A stretch of 64,000 bases of DNA from Companilactobacillus farciminis KCTC 3681 = DSM 20184 (lineage in GTDB: Bacteria > Bacillota > Bacilli > Lactobacillales > Lactobacillaceae). The translations under genes and the position numbers were made by a program. Numbering within the stretch: the stretch's first letter is position 1; each line of letters begins with the position of its first letter. The DNA is taken from assembly GCF_002706745.1 (NCBI RefSeq), contig NZ_CP017702.1:620001-684000 (forward strand). The letters are read 5' to 3'. Positions 18,906 to 61,337 of this stretch are shown piece by piece. Below the pieces are notes generated by a model. The model searched no databases. It worked only from the letters and a program-made list of their open reading frames with translations, and was not told the origin of the DNA.

Positions 18906-18978
18906 GGTTAAACTTTAGAATTAATACAACCAACGTCGCAAATGAAATCATTAACGATAACGCTTGGTATACGCTCAT
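18886..18978 (-). CDS. Putative holin-like type I toxin (Hol_Tox/BsrG-TxpA-like), copy 1
   Basis: A 30-aa peptide beginning MSVYQALSLMISFATL, then a run of V, L and I, ending in a charged tail (KFNQKNNRP). One TM helix and a basic C-terminus fit the Hol_Tox family, whose B. subtilis members start M-[ST]-VY-x-[ST]-L. The start ATG has AAAGGG close upstream, and GCCC seven bases earlier can pair with that GGGC and hide the ribosome site, as in other type I toxins. Compared with the second copy, the differences up to the tail are synonymous (GCG/GCA, ACG/ACA, GTA/GTT), showing that this reading frame is selected. Likely a membrane-active toxin, inferred from the family. Confidence 0.85.
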   Translation of the reverse strand: MSVYQALSLMISFATLVVLILKFNQKNNRP

Positions 18979-19225
18979 GCTGCCCTTTCTCGGGGCGACG
19001 CGCACTTCTTTTAGTTTTATCCATAGGCATCACCTCGCAATTGTTCGGCTAGCCACCGCCTTAACTTCTTACATTATTCATTATCCATGAAAAGCGGCTT
19101 AATTCAAATTGTTTTGAGTCTATTAAGGAAACTTTTAAATTTTTTTATTTTATATATAAGTATTATTTACTTAATACGACATCCTAGATATGATGATAAT
19201 ACGACATATCATGGAGGGATGAAAT

Positions 19226-19696: not shown

Positions 19697-20044
19697 ATGA
19701 AAAGATTTGATCAAGAAATTTTATTGTCTACCACTCGTACAGATGATGATAAAGTCGGACATCCATTTTTGATTCAGAATACGTTTTATGATCGCCATGG
19801 AGAAATAAAAAAAAGAACTTTAGAGATAGATCCTAAATCAGATGCATATGAATATTTTTATATTCAATTTTCAAGTGATCGTTATCAACCGGATCAATAT
19901 AGATTAATTTTAAGATTGGATAGTTTTAAGTGCGGTGGTATTGATTATGCTGAAGCTGTAAAGGGAAAAATCGATCAGATGATTTCATTGGGGGAGAGTA
20001 TAAACGAACAATTAAAAAAAGAAGGATGGATTGAATTTAAGTGA
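19697..20044 (+). CDS. Island protein family, paralogue 1 (115 aa, unknown)
   Basis: A soluble 115-aa protein starting MKRFDQEILLSTTRTDDDKVG. Conserved landmarks in the three local copies are PFLIQNTF-DRHGEIKKRT, YFYI--SS-RY-PD-Y and an ending in KEGWIE. The C-terminal third looks helical (VKGKIDQMISLGESINEQL). No family is recognised. AAAAAGGATG precedes the ATG. About 80% identical by eye to the copy at 21808 and less to that at 24234. Its position next to toxin-antitoxin genes may mean an immunity or regulatory role, but that is only a guess. Confidence 0.75.
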   Translation: MKRFDQEILLSTTRTDDDKVGHPFLIQNTFYDRHGEIKKRTLEIDPKSDAYEYFYIQFSSDRYQPDQYRLILRLDSFKCGGIDYAEAVKGKIDQMISLGESINEQLKKEGWIEFK

Positions 20045-21014: not shown

Positions 21015-21088
21015 TGATTAAACTTTAGAATTAAAACAACCAATGTCGCAAATGAAATCATTAACGATAATGCTTGGTATACGCTCAT
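21005..21088 (-). CDS. Putative holin-like type I toxin, copy 2
   Basis: A 27-aa peptide identical to copy 1 through KFNQK. An extra T in the terminator's T run shifts the end, so the protein stops after KK instead of NNRP. The TM core is unchanged, and the same AAAGGG ribosome site can be masked by an upstream GCCC. Both copies look functional, which is unusual because sibling antitoxins can cross-pair. Confidence 0.85.
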   Translation of the reverse strand: MSVYQALSLMISFATLVVLILKFNQKK

Positions 21089-21324
21089 GCTGCCCTTTCT
21101 CGGGGCAACGCGCACTTCTTTTAGTTTTATCCATAGGCATCACCTCGCAATTGTTCGGTTAGCCACCGCCTTAACTTCTTACATTATTCATTATCCATGA
21201 AAAACGGCCTAATTCAAATTGTTTTGGGCCTATTAAAGAAACTTTTAAATTATATAAAAGTATTATTTACTTAATATCACATCCCAGATATGATAATAAT
21301 AGGACATATCTAGAAGGAATAAGA

Positions 21325-21807: not shown

Positions 21808-22155
21808 ATGAAAAGATTTGATCAAGAGATTTTATTGTCTACCACTCGTACAGATGATGATAAAGTTGGACAACCGTTTTTGATTCAGAATACATTTTAT
21901 GATCGTCATGGAGAAATAAAGAAAAGAACTTTAGAATTAGATTCTAGGTCAGATGCATATGAATATTTTTATATTCAATTTTCAAGTGATCGTTATCAAC
22001 CGGACCAGTTTAGATTAATTTTAAGATTGGATAATTTTAAGTGTGGCAATATTGATTATGCTGAGGAAGTGAAAGAACAAATTGATGAAATTGTATCATT
22101 GGCAGAAAAAATAAATAAGAAATTAAAAAAAGAAGGATGGATTGAATTTAAGTAA
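21808..22155 (+). CDS. Island protein family, paralogue 2 (115 aa, unknown)
   Basis: Intact second member, starting MKRFDQEILLSTTRTDDDKVGQPF and ending KKEGWIEFK. It differs from paralogue 1 mostly in the C-terminal helix (EEVKEQIDEIVSLAEKINKKL). AAAAAGGATG lies before the ATG. It belongs to the second duplicated unit and is followed by the third att repeat. The function is unknown. Confidence 0.75.
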   Translation: MKRFDQEILLSTTRTDDDKVGQPFLIQNTFYDRHGEIKKRTLELDSRSDAYEYFYIQFSSDRYQPDQFRLILRLDNFKCGNIDYAEEVKEQIDEIVSLAEKINKKLKKEGWIEFK

Positions 22156-50432: not shown

Positions 50433-51660
50433 GTTAACTCTTGAACAAAGAATCAAATACTTGCTGGAAAATGAATATATTGACCAACGACAAGCCGATT
50501 CATTACTAAAGCGACAGACTATTTCAAAAGATTTGGCTGATAGTTTGAGTGAAAATCAAATTGGCAGTTTTAGTTTGCCTTACGGATTCGCCACTGACTT
50601 CTTGGTTAATGGCAAAGATTATTTAGTGCCGATGACGATTGAAGAACCTTCAGTTATTGCTGCGGCTTCAAATGGTGCTAAAAGAATCAAGCATAGCGGT
50701 GGTTTCAAAACTTTTCCTTCTAAGCGAATCGTCTATGGACAGATTGTTTTGGAAAAAATTACTGATATTGATTTTGAACAATTGGAACAAAATAGTTCTG
50801 AAATTTTTAATTTTGCTCAAAATGCCCATCCTAGTTTGCTAAGACGTGGCGGTGGCATTGTATCGTTGAAATTCAATCGTTACGATGAATTTACAGAAAT
50901 TGAATTAGGGATTGATACTGTTGATGCAATGGGTGCTAATATGGTCAACACAATTCTAGAAAAGACGGCTCACAAAATCGTTGAATTAACTAATGATGAC
51001 GTTTTGTGCAGTATTTTATCCAACAGTGGTCAAGGTCAAGTTATCACCGTTGAAGCACGAGTTGATTTTGCCCAATTAGGGACTAAGGACATGACTGGTG
51101 AGCAAGTTGCTAACAGAATCGTTCAGTTATCCAGTTTCGCTCAAAAGTCGGTTAAACGAGCAATTACGCACAATAAGGGTATCATGAATGGAATCGATGC
51201 TGTTTTGTTAGCTACTGGTAACGATTTTCGAGCTCAAGAGGCGGCTGCTCACAGTTTTGCCTTTGAATCTGGACAATACCAACCGTTCAGCGAGTGGCAT
51301 ATAGAAGATGCTCAATTGGTTGGAACGTTGAAGATGCCGATTGAATTAGGAAGTGTTGGTGGTGCTATCAGAGCATTGCCAATGGCTCAATTGAGTTTAG
51401 CAATTATGAAGATCAAAGACAGTCAAGAATTACAGTCAGTCGTTGGAGCAGTCGGTTTAGCCAATAATTTGTCGGCTATCAGAGCTTTAGTTACGACTGG
51501 TATTCAAACTGGTCACATGGGCTTACAGAGTAAATCTTTAGCTGTTTCTGCTGGAGCGGTCGGTTCAGAAATTCACGCAGTTGCTGAAAAATTGAATCAA
51601 ACGAAAGATTATACAATCAAGAATGCTGAAAATATTTTGAAAGAGTTGAGAGAAAAATAA
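50419..51660 (+). CDS. mvaA: Hydroxymethylglutaryl-CoA reductase (class II)
   Basis: Reduces HMG-CoA to mevalonate. I start at 50419 (MKIYELTLEQRIKYLL); the longer frame adds 13 residues from the thiolase region. It is 413 aa. Motifs: ENQIGSFSLPYGFA, TIEEPSVIAAASNGAK, DAMGANM and GTLKMPIELGSVGGA. It is coupled to thiolase upstream (14-bp overlap) and mvaS downstream (one-base overlap). Confidence 0.93.
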   Translation: MKIYELTLEQRIKYLLENEYIDQRQADSLLKRQTISKDLADSLSENQIGSFSLPYGFATDFLVNGKDYLVPMTIEEPSVIAAASNGAKRIKHSGGFKTFPSKRIVYGQIVLEKITDIDFEQLEQNSSEIFNFAQNAHPSLLRRGGGIVSLKFNRYDEFTEIELGIDTVDAMGANMVNTILEKTAHKIVELTNDDVLCSILSNSGQGQVITVEARVDFAQLGTKDMTGEQVANRIVQLSSFAQKSVKRAITHNKGIMNGIDAVLLATGNDFRAQEAAAHSFAFESGQYQPFSEWHIEDAQLVGTLKMPIELGSVGGAIRALPMAQLSLAIMKIKDSQELQSVVGAVGLANNLSAIRALVTTGIQTGHMGLQSKSLAVSAGAVGSEIHAVAEKLNQTKDYTIKNAENILKELREK

Positions 51661-52814
51661 TGGATATAGGTATTGATAAAATAGGTTTTTACGTACCAAA
51701 AGATTATATTGATATTGTTGAATTAGCTAAGAGAAGAGACGTTGATCCTAACAAATTTACGATTGGAATCGGTCAAGACAAACAAGCTGTTCCTTTGCCC
51801 CATCAAGACGCTGTAACGATGGGTGCTAGTTCAGCTGATAGTATTTTGACAGACGAGGACAAAAAAGATTTAGGGATGCTGATTGTCGGAACTGAAAGCA
51901 GTGTTGATGAATCTAAGTCAACTGCCGCCTTTTTGATGGATTTGTTGGACCTTCCGGAAGATATTAGAGCTTATGAAATCAAACAAGCTTGTTACGGAGC
52001 TACAGCCGGTTTACAAACTGCTTATGATTTTGTCAGCTTGAATCCTGATAAAAAGGTTCTAGTCATTGCAACTGATATTGCTCGGTACGGTATCAAGACA
52101 CCAGGTGAGGTTACTCAAGGTGCGGGTTCAGTGGCAATGCTGATCAGTCAAAATCCTCGAGTTTTGAAGTTGAATCACGAATCAGTTTACATGACAAAAA
52201 ATGTCGGTGACTTCTGGCGTCCAACTTTCTCAAAGACAGCTTTTGCTAGAGGAAAGTTCTCCAATGAAATTTACGTCGAATTTTTCCAAACATTGTGGGC
52301 TAAATTCCAGAAGAAATACGATGCAACAGCTGATGACTTTTCAACGATGCTTTTCCATATCCCTTACACAAAGATGGGAACTAAAGCATTGAGAACTCTA
52401 GAAGGAAAAGTTTCCGATGAAAAATACGCTGAATTGACAGAGCACTATCAAAACAGTATCAAATTCAGTCGTGACGTGGGTAATCTTTATACAGGTTCCC
52501 TTTATTTAGGATTGTTGTCATACTTAGTTAACGGTGCAAAAGCCAATGAGAACGTCTTGATGTTCAGTTACGGGTCAGGTGCTGTCGGTGAATTGTTCAG
52601 TGCCAAGATCCAACCAGGTTTTGAACAAGTTATCGACAAGCAAGCCTTGATTGATATGTTAAATAATCGTCAAAAAATCACTATTGATGATTACGAAAAA
52701 ATCTATCAAATTGAATATAAAAACGATACGATCGTTGATCCATCAACTGTTAGCGACAAGTTCTATTTGAGTGAAATCAAAGAAAATGAACGTATTTATA
52801 AAAAAATGAAATAA
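51660..52814 (+). CDS. mvaS: Hydroxymethylglutaryl-CoA synthase
   Basis: Makes HMG-CoA from acetyl-CoA and acetoacetyl-CoA. It is 384 aa, starting MDIGIDKIGFYVPKDY. The catalytic Cys is in KQACYGATAGLQ, His in FHIPYTKMG and Glu in VGTESSVDESK. Its ATG shares a base with the mvaA stop. The first cre-controlled RNA gene begins five bases after its stop, and there is no terminator for mvaS before that promoter. Confidence 0.94.
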   Translation: MDIGIDKIGFYVPKDYIDIVELAKRRDVDPNKFTIGIGQDKQAVPLPHQDAVTMGASSADSILTDEDKKDLGMLIVGTESSVDESKSTAAFLMDLLDLPEDIRAYEIKQACYGATAGLQTAYDFVSLNPDKKVLVIATDIARYGIKTPGEVTQGAGSVAMLISQNPRVLKLNHESVYMTKNVGDFWRPTFSKTAFARGKFSNEIYVEFFQTLWAKFQKKYDATADDFSTMLFHIPYTKMGTKALRTLEGKVSDEKYAELTEHYQNSIKFSRDVGNLYTGSLYLGLLSYLVNGAKANENVLMFSYGSGAVGELFSAKIQPGFEQVIDKQALIDMLNNRQKITIDDYEKIYQIEYKNDTIVDPSTVSDKFYLSEIKENERIYKKMK

Positions 52815-52818
52815 AACA

Positions 52819-52847
52819 TTGTAAACGCTTACCTATGATGTTATATT
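52819..52847 (+). promoter_or_regulatory. Promoter with cre box over the -35, RNA copy 1
   Basis: TTGTAA, 17 bp, TATATT. TGTAAACGCTTACC (52820-52833) is a near-consensus cre box that covers most of the -35 and the start of the spacer, so CcpA binding would block polymerase. Confidence 0.75.
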
Positions 52848-52852
52848 AAAGA

Positions 52853-53234
52853 CGTGGTAAAGATGAAGTGTCAAGAACTGTAGCCCTAAAAAGATTTTGA
52901 TTCAGAAAATGTTATCGTTTTCCAGGAGATGGTAGGATTAGTCTAGAACAAATAAAAATTAAGGTAGTACAGTTCAACGGCATTTTAGGAACTAGCGAAA
53001 AAAGTTAACATAAGATCGACCTAATTAGTAGTAGTCGCGCAAGCTCAATACATAGTTCGCTAGGATCCTATAGTTGGACTAACATAAGTACATATTCATA
53101 TATAGTAAGATATGTTTCAGGTAGTAAGATTCATTTAAAGTTTAGATTCATTTAACGTTGATGAAACTGCAGTAAATTTCATCTTACCACTTATATCTAA
53201 CTAGGGACTCCCAACTCACGGGGGTCCTTTTTTA
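52853..53234 (+). ncRNA. Tandem CcpA-controlled long sRNA, copy 1
   Basis: A ~380-nt predicted transcript from the TATATT promoter to a terminator (GGGACTCCC with GGGGGTCC, then T run). Conserved blocks shared with copy 2: GTGGTAAAGATGAAGTGTCA, GAACTGTAGCCCT, GTACAGTTCAACG, GTTAACATAAGATCGACCT, AGTCGCGCAA and a GATGAAA/ATTTCATC hairpin. No ORF over 30 codons is shared; a six-codon reading MKCQEL is identical in both. It is not tmRNA, RNase P or 6S RNA as far as I can tell. Confidence 0.7.
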
Positions 53235-53336
53235 GTGCAGAGGGTGGTGCAAGCTTGCAGAACCCGTTTAGTAGTACAATGAGATGTTACAAAAATAGGG
53301 CAAATGATATAATCCTTAACGTATACAGCATCAAAG

Positions 53337-53365
53337 TTGTAAACGGTTACGGAAGGTGCTATATT
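53337..53365 (+). promoter_or_regulatory. Promoter with cre box over the -35, RNA copy 2
   Basis: TTGTAA, 17 bp, TATATT, the same spacing as copy 1. The cre box is TGTAAACGGTTACG (53338-53351), slightly weaker. Confidence 0.72.
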
Positions 53366-53370
53366 ATAGA

Positions 53371-53748
53371 TGTGGTAAAGATGAAGTGTCAGGAACTGTA
53401 GCCCTGAATGATTTTGATTAAGAAAGTTTTATCTCTGAAGTTTGGTAAGATTAGTACAAAGCAAATGAAAGTTAGAGTCAGTACAGTTCAACGACATTTT
53501 TGGGACTAGTGCCAAAGGTTAACATAAGATCGACCTATTAAAGTAGTCGCGCAAACTCAATACATGTTGCATTAGGATCCATTAGTTGAACAATATACAT
53601 GTGTTCGTAAAGTAAGATATGTTGCAAGTAGTAAGATTTAGAATTTAGATTCAATGTTTAAGTTTTAAAGTTGATGAAACTACAGTAAATTTCATCTTGC
53701 CACTTATATCTAACTGAGGACTCCCGGAGTGTGGGAGTTCTTTTTTTT
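53371..53748 (+). ncRNA. Tandem CcpA-controlled long sRNA, copy 2
   Basis: Same block order as copy 1, with spacer regions diverged. The terminator GGACTCCC/GGGAGTTC keeps its pairing although the loop and ends changed. The whole stretch 52815-53848 is occupied by the two RNAs, with no protein gene. Confidence 0.7.
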
Positions 53749-58902: not shown

Positions 58903-59892
58903 TTAGTTGGTACTTTGACGAAAGACCAATTTGGTCATTAGAATAACTTTTTTGGCAACGTGTCGAGGGTTAGTCAAGACATCTTGGATAGCATCGACAG
59001 CTGTTTCACCCATTTGAACCGTCGCCACGGCTACTGAGCTGAGTTCAGGATTTACTAAACTGGCTATGGACGTGTCATTGAAGCTAAAAATCTGAACTTG
59101 ATCAGGTACAGAAATTTGTTCTTCTTGTAAAGCCTTCAAGGCTCCACTAGCCATTGGATCGTTAGAAACGAAGAAAGCCTGTGGCAAATTAGGCAATGTC
59201 TGAATGGCTTGTTTCATCTGTTGATAACCAGATTCCTTCGTAAAGTCACCTTTGAAACAGAGTTCAGGTTTAAAAATGCCGTGCTTGTTCATAGCTTGTT
59301 GAAAACTATCGTAACGAAAGTCGGGAATGATTCGTTTGTCATCAGTTGAAGTTTCTTCACCATAAATTAAGCCGATGTCAGCAATATTTTGATTGGCAAA
59401 GTAGTCAACAACTTGTTCGATACCGTAATTGAAATCGGGCAAAATTGTATCAAAGCCCTTTGAAAATTGGTCATCATCAATGAAGACTAAATTCGAACTG
59501 ATTTTTTTCATAGTCGTTACTTGGTCTGAACTGAATTTTCCAATCGCAATGATTCCGTCGATGTCAGTAGGAATTTGTTCTAGATCATTGTGAAAGATTC
59601 TTAATATTTCAAAGCCATATTTTGGAGCTTGTTGTTCGATGCCTTCGCGGATCGTCATGTAGTACAAGTCATCTTGTTCTTTTGATTCGGAATACCACTG
59701 AACTAAAGCAATGTGCTTTTGAAAGCGAGAATTCTTGTGGTTAGCTTTTTGGTAGTTTAAATCAGTCGCAATTTTTAGAATATTAGCTCGCGTTTGGTCG
59801 GTGACTGATAAAGTCAGATCGTTATTTAAAACTCGTGAAACCGTAGCGGCAGAAACGTGGGCTTTTTTGGCAATATCTCGTAAGGTAGCCAT
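58903..59892 (-). CDS. galR: LacI-family regulator GalR
   Basis: A 329-aa repressor with an N-terminal LacI helix-turn-helix (LRDIAKKAHVSAATVSRVLN) and a periplasmic-binding-type sugar domain (DIGLIYGEETSTDD, AFFVSNDPMASGALKAL). Its ATG shares a base with the galT stop, so it is the third gene of galKTR. By position it senses galactose or a derivative and controls the operon from the site before galK. Confidence 0.9.
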   Translation of the reverse strand: MATLRDIAKKAHVSAATVSRVLNNDLTLSVTDQTRANILKIATDLNYQKANHKNSRFQKHIALVQWYSESKEQDDLYYMTIREGIEQQAPKYGFEILRIFHNDLEQIPTDIDGIIAIGKFSSDQVTTMKKISSNLVFIDDDQFSKGFDTILPDFNYGIEQVVDYFANQNIADIGLIYGEETSTDDKRIIPDFRYDSFQQAMNKHGIFKPELCFKGDFTKESGYQQMKQAIQTLPNLPQAFFVSNDPMASGALKALQEEQISVPDQVQIFSFNDTSIASLVNPELSSVAVATVQMGETAVDAIQDVLTNPRHVAKKVILMTKLVFRQSTN

Positions 59893-61337
59893 TATGAAAG
59901 ACTTCCTATGAATTTATCGAAGGCTTCTTGACCTTGTTGGTCCCATTTGAAAACTCCAGCATCTTCAAGCACTCGACCAAAGACTAAACCAGTTTCTTTA
60001 TCAACGATTTCTGACACGTTGTCTTCATTGAAGTCGTATTTTTCTTGAAGTTTATCAGCCCAAGCCTTGTGATATTCTGCCATTTGGTTAGGTTGTTTGA
60101 GTAAATAACGTTCGACTTCTTTTAGTTCATCTTTCAAGCGAGCGGGTAAAATTGCCCGACCCATGACCTCAATCAAGCCGATATTTTCTTTCTTGATGTG
60201 TTGAACATCTTGGTGGGGATGAAAAATACCATCAGGGAATTCTTTTGAAGTTTGGTTGTCACGCAAAACGATATCTAAAACGTAATTGTCATCGACTTTG
60301 TATGCAATTGGTGTGACAGTGTGGTGACGAGTTTTATCGGTGAAAGCTCTGACGTCAACCGTTTCATCAGAGTAGTTTTTCCAATTTTCGTGGATCAAAG
60401 TGGCAGCGGCAACTAATTGTTCTGGATTATCACTAGTCAAACGAATCGTTGAAAGTGGCCATTTGACGATACCAGCTTTGACATTTTTTACTGGAAGTGA
60501 AATATCGCGGTCAATTTTAGCTTTCATCATTGGAAATTGATGACGTCCACCTTGATAGTGGTCGTGACTGAGCATTGAACCACCAACGATTGGCAAATCA
60601 GCGTTACTGCCGACAAAGTATTGTGGAAACATCTTGATGATTTCAAGCAAGTTGTTGAAAGTATGTTGATTGATGATCATTGGTTGATGAATTTTGTTCA
60701 AGAAAATCGCATGTTCGCTGAAATAAGCGTAAGGCGAGTATTGGAAGCCCCAAGTTTGTCCACCGAGAGTGAAGCGGATGATACGGTGATTGCTTCTGGC
60801 TGGATAGCCGAGACGTCCTAAATAACCTTCGTTTTCCATGCACAGTTGGCATTTAGGATAACCAGTTTGCTTTTGTTTGCCGGCTAGAGCAATAGTTTTG
60901 GGGTCCTTTTCGGGTTTGGACAAATTGATAGTGATTTCGAGATTTCCGTAGTCAGTTTTGACTTGATAAGAGATATTTTTAGCGATGGCTTTGACTTTGA
61001 TATAGTCATTGTCTTGGCTCAACTTGTAAAAATAATTCGTGGCCGTTTCAGGGCTTTTTTGGTAGAGATTCCAAAACTTGGCGTTGACCTTAGAAGGTAG
61101 TGGCGTCACGAAGTTCATCAACTGGTCGTTGAGAATTTCTTTTTCAGTTTGATTATCTTCAATCTTGCCATTTTTGATAGCTGTTTTAATTAAAGCAGTT
61201 TTGATATTGTCGTCTGTTTGATGATTGTCGTCACCAACTAATGCACAGATACGATTGTATAAATAAGTTTTGTCGAGTTCTTGATAATCATTGTCAGAAT
61301 CAACGATCAAGTCGACAAATTGGTCAACACAGGACAT
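59892..61337 (-). CDS. galT: UDP-glucose-hexose-1-phosphate uridylyltransferase (class II GalT)
   Basis: Leloir-pathway enzyme that swaps Gal-1-P for the Glc-1-P of UDP-glucose. It is 481 aa, the long Firmicute type. Motifs: CQLCMENEGYLGRLGYPARSN, and the active-site region GSMLSHDHYQGGRHQFPM. GAGGTGGAAAAATA precedes the ATG, which overlaps the galK stop by one base. galE is not in this window. Confidence 0.93.
   Translation of the reverse strand: MSCVDQFVDLIVDSDNDYQELDKTYLYNRICALVGDDNHQTDDNIKTALIKTAIKNGKIEDNQTEKEILNDQLMNFVTPLPSKVNAKFWNLYQKSPETATNYFYKLSQDNDYIKVKAIAKNISYQVKTDYGNLEITINLSKPEKDPKTIALAGKQKQTGYPKCQLCMENEGYLGRLGYPARSNHRIIRFTLGGQTWGFQYSPYAYFSEHAIFLNKIHQPMIINQHTFNNLLEIIKMFPQYFVGSNADLPIVGGSMLSHDHYQGGRHQFPMMKAKIDRDISLPVKNVKAGIVKWPLSTIRLTSDNPEQLVAAATLIHENWKNYSDETVDVRAFTDKTRHHTVTPIAYKVDDNYVLDIVLRDNQTSKEFPDGIFHPHQDVQHIKKENIGLIEVMGRAILPARLKDELKEVERYLLKQPNQMAEYHKAWADKLQEKYDFNEDNVSEIVDKETGLVFGRVLEDAGVFKWDQQGQEAFDKFIGSLS

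Follow-up and report, generated by a model that had tools for sequence, protein, structure and literature searches.

Directly behind the mvaS gene of Companilactobacillus farciminis, in the window studied here (the whole stretch of 64,000 nt that was analysed), two similar sequences follow one another, and they raise the question of what they encode, what controls them and whether their product could stand in for a regulator that the genus appears to lack.

Layout and operator of the tandem genes

The original prediction placed two tandem RNA genes at 52819-53748, and we found this position to be correct: the copies lie 518 nt apart and are 78% identical over ~360 nt. The promoter that had been proposed for each, with a cre-type site over the -35, and a terminator stem belonging to each copy were likewise located, as follows:

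51660-52814 (+): mvaS, the usual upstream neighbour, outside the RNA
52819-52847 (+): TTGTAA-17-TATATT promoter of copy 1, its -10 preceded by TG
52819-52832 (+): cre-type operator TTGTAAACGCTTAC over the -35 of copy 1 (pattern count, 56-copy alignment)
52853-53233 (+): RNA copy 1, of the a-type, including the whole T-run of its terminator (homology, alignment A1, fold z -4.36)
53203-53233 (+): intrinsic terminator of copy 1, stem 53203-53229
53337-53365 (+): promoter of copy 2, TTGTAA-17-TATATT, with TG before the -10
53337-53350 (+): cre-type operator TTGTAAACGGTTAC over the -35 of copy 2 (pattern count, 56-copy alignment)
53371-53748 (+): RNA copy 2, of the b-type, including the whole T-run of its terminator (homology, alignment A1, fold z -2.88)
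53716-53748 (+): intrinsic terminator of copy 2, stem 53716-53742

Searching the RNA loci of the genus with nhmmer, we recovered 56 full-length copies in 35 genomes. The predicted start of copy 1, ~52853, falls 42 nt past the last sense codon of mvaS, and the first RNA copy begins 41-43 nt past that codon in 31 of the 35 genomes. The distance is 242 nt in G017 and 1436 nt in G008, where the mvaS match has 50% identity; mvaS was not found in the stretch around the RNA locus for G027 and G035.

Across the 64 kb of the window, 0.21 sites of the pattern TTGNAANCGNTTNC would be expected; there are exactly two, at 52819 and 53337. When the full copies were aligned on the RNA body rather than on the promoter, TTG..A.CG.TT.C occupied positions -34 to -21 in 56 of 56, its fixed positions carrying 1.9-2 bits of information compared with 0.1-0.7 bits at -20 to -16; the -10 region was also near-invariant. 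Because the -35 hexamer accounts for only the first part of this motif, the remainder, CG.TT.C, which has 2 bits at each of its fixed positions, suggests a DNA-binding protein. The cre consensus is TGWAANCGNTNWCA, with which the operator of copy 1 agrees at 13 of 14 positions. From the sequence comparison, we regard the presence of two stand-alone RNA genes with a cre-type site in their promoters as strongly supported; since this site lies on the -35, repression is expected, and we infer that CcpA represses both genes. The same argument from a site on the -35 has been made for the 6S genes of lactic acid bacteria (PMC8414754). Of the 36 Companilactobacillus genomes, 35, including the window's own, contain a ccpA match over the curated cut-off (G032 falls below it). 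Other LacI-family matches were found in 35 of 36 genomes too, and the operator could serve another protein of this family instead of CcpA. Within the window, a LacI-family-like regulator gene at 58903-59892 (-) lies directly downstream of a galT-like gene at 59892-61337 (-); the regulator is a possible second binder of cre-like sites.

Each copy is predicted to be an independent gene for a folded non-coding RNA of ~335 nt, with the terminator next to it. One could instead read the RNA as a cis-acting leader or attenuator of a downstream gene, given that its terminal part is a structured region followed by a terminator. However, promoter and terminator belong to each copy, and copy 2 comes after copy 1, so that control of a neighbour in cis is unlikely. 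Moreover, in loci of unequal length, a downstream 53-aa ORF was found in 9 of the 35 RNA loci and a downstream 3D-domain gene in 22, in 21 of them on the opposite strand. We give the leader reading next to no weight.

A common fold and its possible role

We derived the architecture of the RNA from pair probabilities averaged over 56 individual foldings. A closing stem, P1, in which 5' GUGGUAA.GAUGAA pairs with 3' UUCAUCUURCCAC, encloses three arms (P2-P3-P5; P6-P7; P8) and is followed by the terminator. Conserved blocks alternating with diverged spacers had been described for the two copies; the blocks are real, but the unit that the copies share is a multibranched fold and not just a row of blocks. 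Its elements are:

53372-53703 (+): P1 closing stem, 53372-53385 with 53691-53703, 13 bp with one bulged A, 99.9% of cells paired
53386-53497 (+): P2-P5 arm, with P2 at 53386-53390:53493-53497, P3 at 53393-53400:53482-53489 and P5 at 53426-53434:53443-53451
53501-53581 (+): P6-P7 arm, with P6 at 53501-53512:53569-53581, P7 at 53531-53534:53546-53549 and a highly conserved internal loop with GUUAACAUAA
53121-53170 (+): P8 arm, given for copy 1, 53121-53125:53166-53170 and 53130-53134:53161-53165

Over the 73 pairs of alignment A1, 94.9% of cells are paired, compared with 39-46% when the partner strand is slid, and two-sided change is seen at 21 of the 73 pairs (150 cells), compared with 8-14 pairs (10-43 cells) when slid. 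Changes on both sides occur at 3 of 5 pairs in P2, 3 of 8 in P3 and 6 of 11 in P6 (98.7% paired), as well as at one pair of a short inner helix; they also occur at 8 of 9 pairs of the terminator helix. In the 56 full copies, no two-sided change was found in P1 (8 pairs invariant, 5 varying on one side only), P5 (0 of 9), P7 (invariant) or P8, whose two helices (9 and 10) have 97.9% and 94.3% of cells paired. Four b-type copies, including copy 2, have letters missing from the upper stem of P8.

Of 500 shuffles, 19 reached the observed number of further pair types. When all pairs of columns were scanned blindly against a null derived from a tree, no convincing pair emerged (best E ~1, the top two pairs being non-canonical); the aligned copies group into a few clades, and the power of such a scan is low. 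Support for the fold therefore comes from the counts on named helices, which were derived from the very sequences used for counting. Taken singly, both copies of the window fold better than their 100 shuffles, with z -4.36 for copy 1 and -2.88 for copy 2 (folded to 53744).

The best-conserved unpaired bases flank P7, as GUUAACAUAA.AU and, less strictly, GCAAGCUCAAUACAUG. We also noted an alternative helix, GUUCAAC:GUUGAAC, between 53486-53492 and 53585-53591, which has bases in common with P3 and would compete with part of it; it has 87.5% of cells paired and some two-sided change, and is possibly a switch, a pseudoknot or a chance pairing. Furthermore, GUUAAC is nearly invariant and self-complementary, and could bring two RNA molecules into contact.

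The fold also bears on whether the RNA is instead an mRNA for a very small peptide. Many copies have an MKCQEL frame near the 5' end, with a stop column common to 39 of the 56; in the remaining copies, however, the frame is shifted, extended or stopped early, and it sits within P1, P2 and P3, helices that alone would preserve its letters. No reading frame has its start and end kept in all 56 copies. We consider a coding function extremely improbable.

We hold it to be moderately probable that the product is a CcpA-repressed, stand-alone folded RNA, made when the preferred sugar runs out and acting via a protein partner. While that sugar is abundant, CcpA on the -35 would block the promoter; upon its exhaustion, the RNA would accumulate and act in trans, binding a protein or forming an RNP and so adjusting expression for slow growth. 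The protein-binding step is a matter of judgement, and in our view the most likely one: we favour it over simple pairing with mRNA because conservation covers the paired skeleton jointly with the bases of the internal loops, instead of falling on a single exposed antisense stretch. A likeness to multicopy sister antisense sRNAs is possible; the conserved part here is a large fold whose internal loops are kept as well.

The main rival to protein binding is a base-pairing regulatory RNA, also CcpA-repressed, which would silence or sponge mRNAs or sRNAs via GUUAACAUAA or AUAGUAAGAU, with the fold as a mere scaffold. Its logic of CcpA repression is that of RsaI and RosA. RsaI of Staphylococcus aureus is repressed by CcpA, released upon glucose starvation and pairs with mRNAs (PMC9266662), while RosA of Bacillus subtilis, whose transcription CcpA represses, sponges sRNAs and has pairing regions rich in G (PMC8216469). 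Consistent with such a role, some conserved stretches of the new RNA are predicted to be unpaired. Against it, conservation is spread across many blocks, several helices are maintained by compensatory change, and typical base-pairing sRNAs are shorter than the new RNA. We regard base pairing as possible, albeit doubtful. The new RNA matches no Rfam family, which separates it from RsaI, and is set against RosA by description only. The interest lies in a folded RNA family for which on and off conditions are clearly predicted, in food bacteria that can be cultured.

Range and duplication of the family

The RNA is present in 35 of 36 Companilactobacillus genomes, the exception being G034, a genome of 1.5 Mb. 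A search with copy 2 at E 0.001 matched 36 of 100 relatives. Of these, 35, the window's genome included, are Companilactobacillus; the 36th, from another genus, has a single exact match of 22 nt that we judged to be chance. The original prediction proposed a covariance search for homologues downstream of mvaS in other lactobacilli. For this we used R1, a covariance model that represents the P6/P7 domain. Run under strict filters, with the scoring of ten candidates in each genome, it matches 25 of 26 sampled Companilactobacillus genomes and 0 of 371 genomes from 39 other Lactobacillaceae genera, so that the expectation holds within the genus and not in the other lactobacilli searched. The exact core pattern, which misses diverged copies because it is exact, was found in 24 stretches from 23 of 84,980 species genomes, 22 of these being named Companilactobacillus and one an uncultured Lactobacillus MAG. 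C. futsaii and C. formosensis are among the named species with the closest copies. In viral contigs, this pattern was absent, and a distant-mode search of plasmid and phage collections yielded no homologues.

Two or three full copies are found in 20 genomes and one in 15, duplicates thus being retained in many Companilactobacillus species; genomes of the deeper clades mostly have one full copy (G001 has two). G015, G022, G024, G025 and G030 (loci L040, L042, L012, L041 and L035) have extra partial copies beside the full ones, which we excluded from all copy counts. Among the four partial-copy promoters shown, three deviate from the cre-type pattern and that of G022 retains it; some of the partial copies may thus be in decay. 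When the copies were placed in a tree, eleven of the b-type, drawn from different species, formed a cluster with support 85 that excludes the a-types of those species. In the kimchii-paralimentarius group, by contrast, the a and b copies are nearer each other. This tree is a rough guide, as the a-type cluster has support below 80 and G032, which belongs to a deep clade and has one copy, is placed oddly among the b-types on a long branch.

The 6S locus and relation to known RNAs

In lactic acid bacteria, the usual locus of 6S RNA (ssrS, RF00013) is between rarA and uspA (PMC8414754). The genome of the window has rarA, then a small membrane ORF, then usp, separated by -8 and 90 nt. The same arrangement is seen in all 36 Companilactobacillus genomes (L115-L150), with -8 to 12 nt from rarA to the small ORF and 72-91 nt from there to usp; hence the locus itself is intact, with room for a 6S gene in none of the 36. 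We examined 11 loci from other genera and checked the position in nine, of which eight have the 6S match between rarA and usp, the ninth having no rarA in the stretch.

The Rfam 6S model RF00013 is weak in Lactobacillaceae, missing 16 of 25 genomes outside Companilactobacillus, and is too weak to judge absence; we therefore built a tailored covariance model, R2, from 14 6S sequences of the order. With strict filters, R2 matches 26 of 26 genomes outside Companilactobacillus, six of which had supplied training sequences (the remaining 20 of 20 also matched), and 0 of 36 Companilactobacillus genomes. Looser filters gave weak matches in 5 of 10 Companilactobacillus genomes, the best at 24.5 bits and E 0.0078. 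Six weak loci were inspected: three are mutually homologous and presumably antisense to secE (the gene was read by eye), the other three are not homologous, and neither an Rfam match at E 0.1 nor a tRNA was found at any of the six. After this inspection, we judged the weak matches to be chance. A strongly diverged 6S elsewhere in Companilactobacillus is possible. A search with a Lacto-usp model produced no match, controls included, and so carries no weight. The sections of PMC8414754 consulted do not mention an absence of 6S in Companilactobacillus, and its main text does not name farciminis, alimentarius, crustorum or nantensis. The genus-wide absence of a recognisable 6S is unusual in itself.

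These observations raise the possibility that the new RNA is the 6S of the genus, relocated beside mvaS and remodelled beyond recognition. The usual 6S place is empty in 36 of 36 Companilactobacillus genomes, and the 5' and 3' ends of the new RNA pair, as do those of 6S. The 6S RNA of lactic acid bacteria is likewise stand-alone with paired ends, and has a cre site near its promoter in about one third of them (PMC8414754). However, R2 applied to the RNA locus with filters off scores at best 4.5 bits (E 0.14), which is chance level, and the new RNA is therefore not a recognisable 6S. It is also longer than 6S, has different flanking genes and adopts a multibranched fold, as opposed to a rod with one large bubble. 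We consider a remodelled 6S to be very unlikely. As a precedent for a CcpA-repressed RNA gene, the 6S RNA of L. lactis is 3-fold up in a CcpA-deficient mutant (PMC8414754).

A different relation would be replacement: Companilactobacillus would have lost 6S, and the task of restraining transcription at sugar exhaustion would have passed to a folded RNA that had newly arisen under cre control; this is a speculative proposal, to which we assign a low probability. A tree of the rarA and usp proteins, with a single outgroup genome as its root, places G034 as the sister of all 35 remaining genomes of the genus (support 80; 59 for the genus). G034 has no 6S, no new RNA and a single match to the ccpA model. 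A first branch without either RNA fits the loss of 6S before the gain of the new RNA, and the simplest reading of the tree would be that 6S was lost in the ancestor of the genus and the new RNA gained later; equally allowed is that the new RNA was instead lost from the small G034 genome. We stress that one loss and one gain make a single coincidence, which is a hint and not evidence of replacement. If replacement is true, one RNA would have substituted for another as a global regulator, 6S being among the most widespread bacterial regulators. Binding of sigma-A RNA polymerase and templating of product RNAs are marks of 6S; should the new RNA bind RNA polymerase, it would count as a convergent form of 6S. 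Otherwise, Companilactobacillus would be a natural knock-out of 6S, with sugar control by the new RNA as a separate layer. The testable question raised is what the consequences of 6S loss are, and whether another RNA is able to substitute.

At the gathering score, Rfam 15 finds nothing in the RNA region of the window, and 6S is absent from a permissive scan up to E 10, whose only two entries, one snoRNA and one scaRNA, have E 6. We take the families GOLLD, ROOL and OLE to be included in Rfam. These are likewise long, folded, conserved bacterial non-coding RNAs (PMC12286853), from which the new RNA differs in being shorter and tandem and in having no Rfam match up to E 10. A long non-coding RNA is also known in a lactobacillus, Lactobacillus salivarius; it is 520 nt long, borne on a megaplasmid and specific to L. 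salivarius (PMC5643018), and we set it apart by description. In the open-access literature that we searched, we saw no report of the new RNA or of 6S lacking in Companilactobacillus. CcpA-controlled regulatory RNAs are known as a kind; what appears to be new is this particular family, together with its fold and setting.

Elsewhere in the window, the Rfam model rli28 matches at 18908-19094 (-) and 21018-21204 (-), with 77 and 82 bits against a gathering score of 45. By eye, 21018-21204 (-) reads as a hydrophobic peptide of ~27 aa, which presumably resembles type I toxin peptides of the TxpA kind. A 115-aa gene near these matches is also duplicated, at 19697-20044 and 21808-22155.
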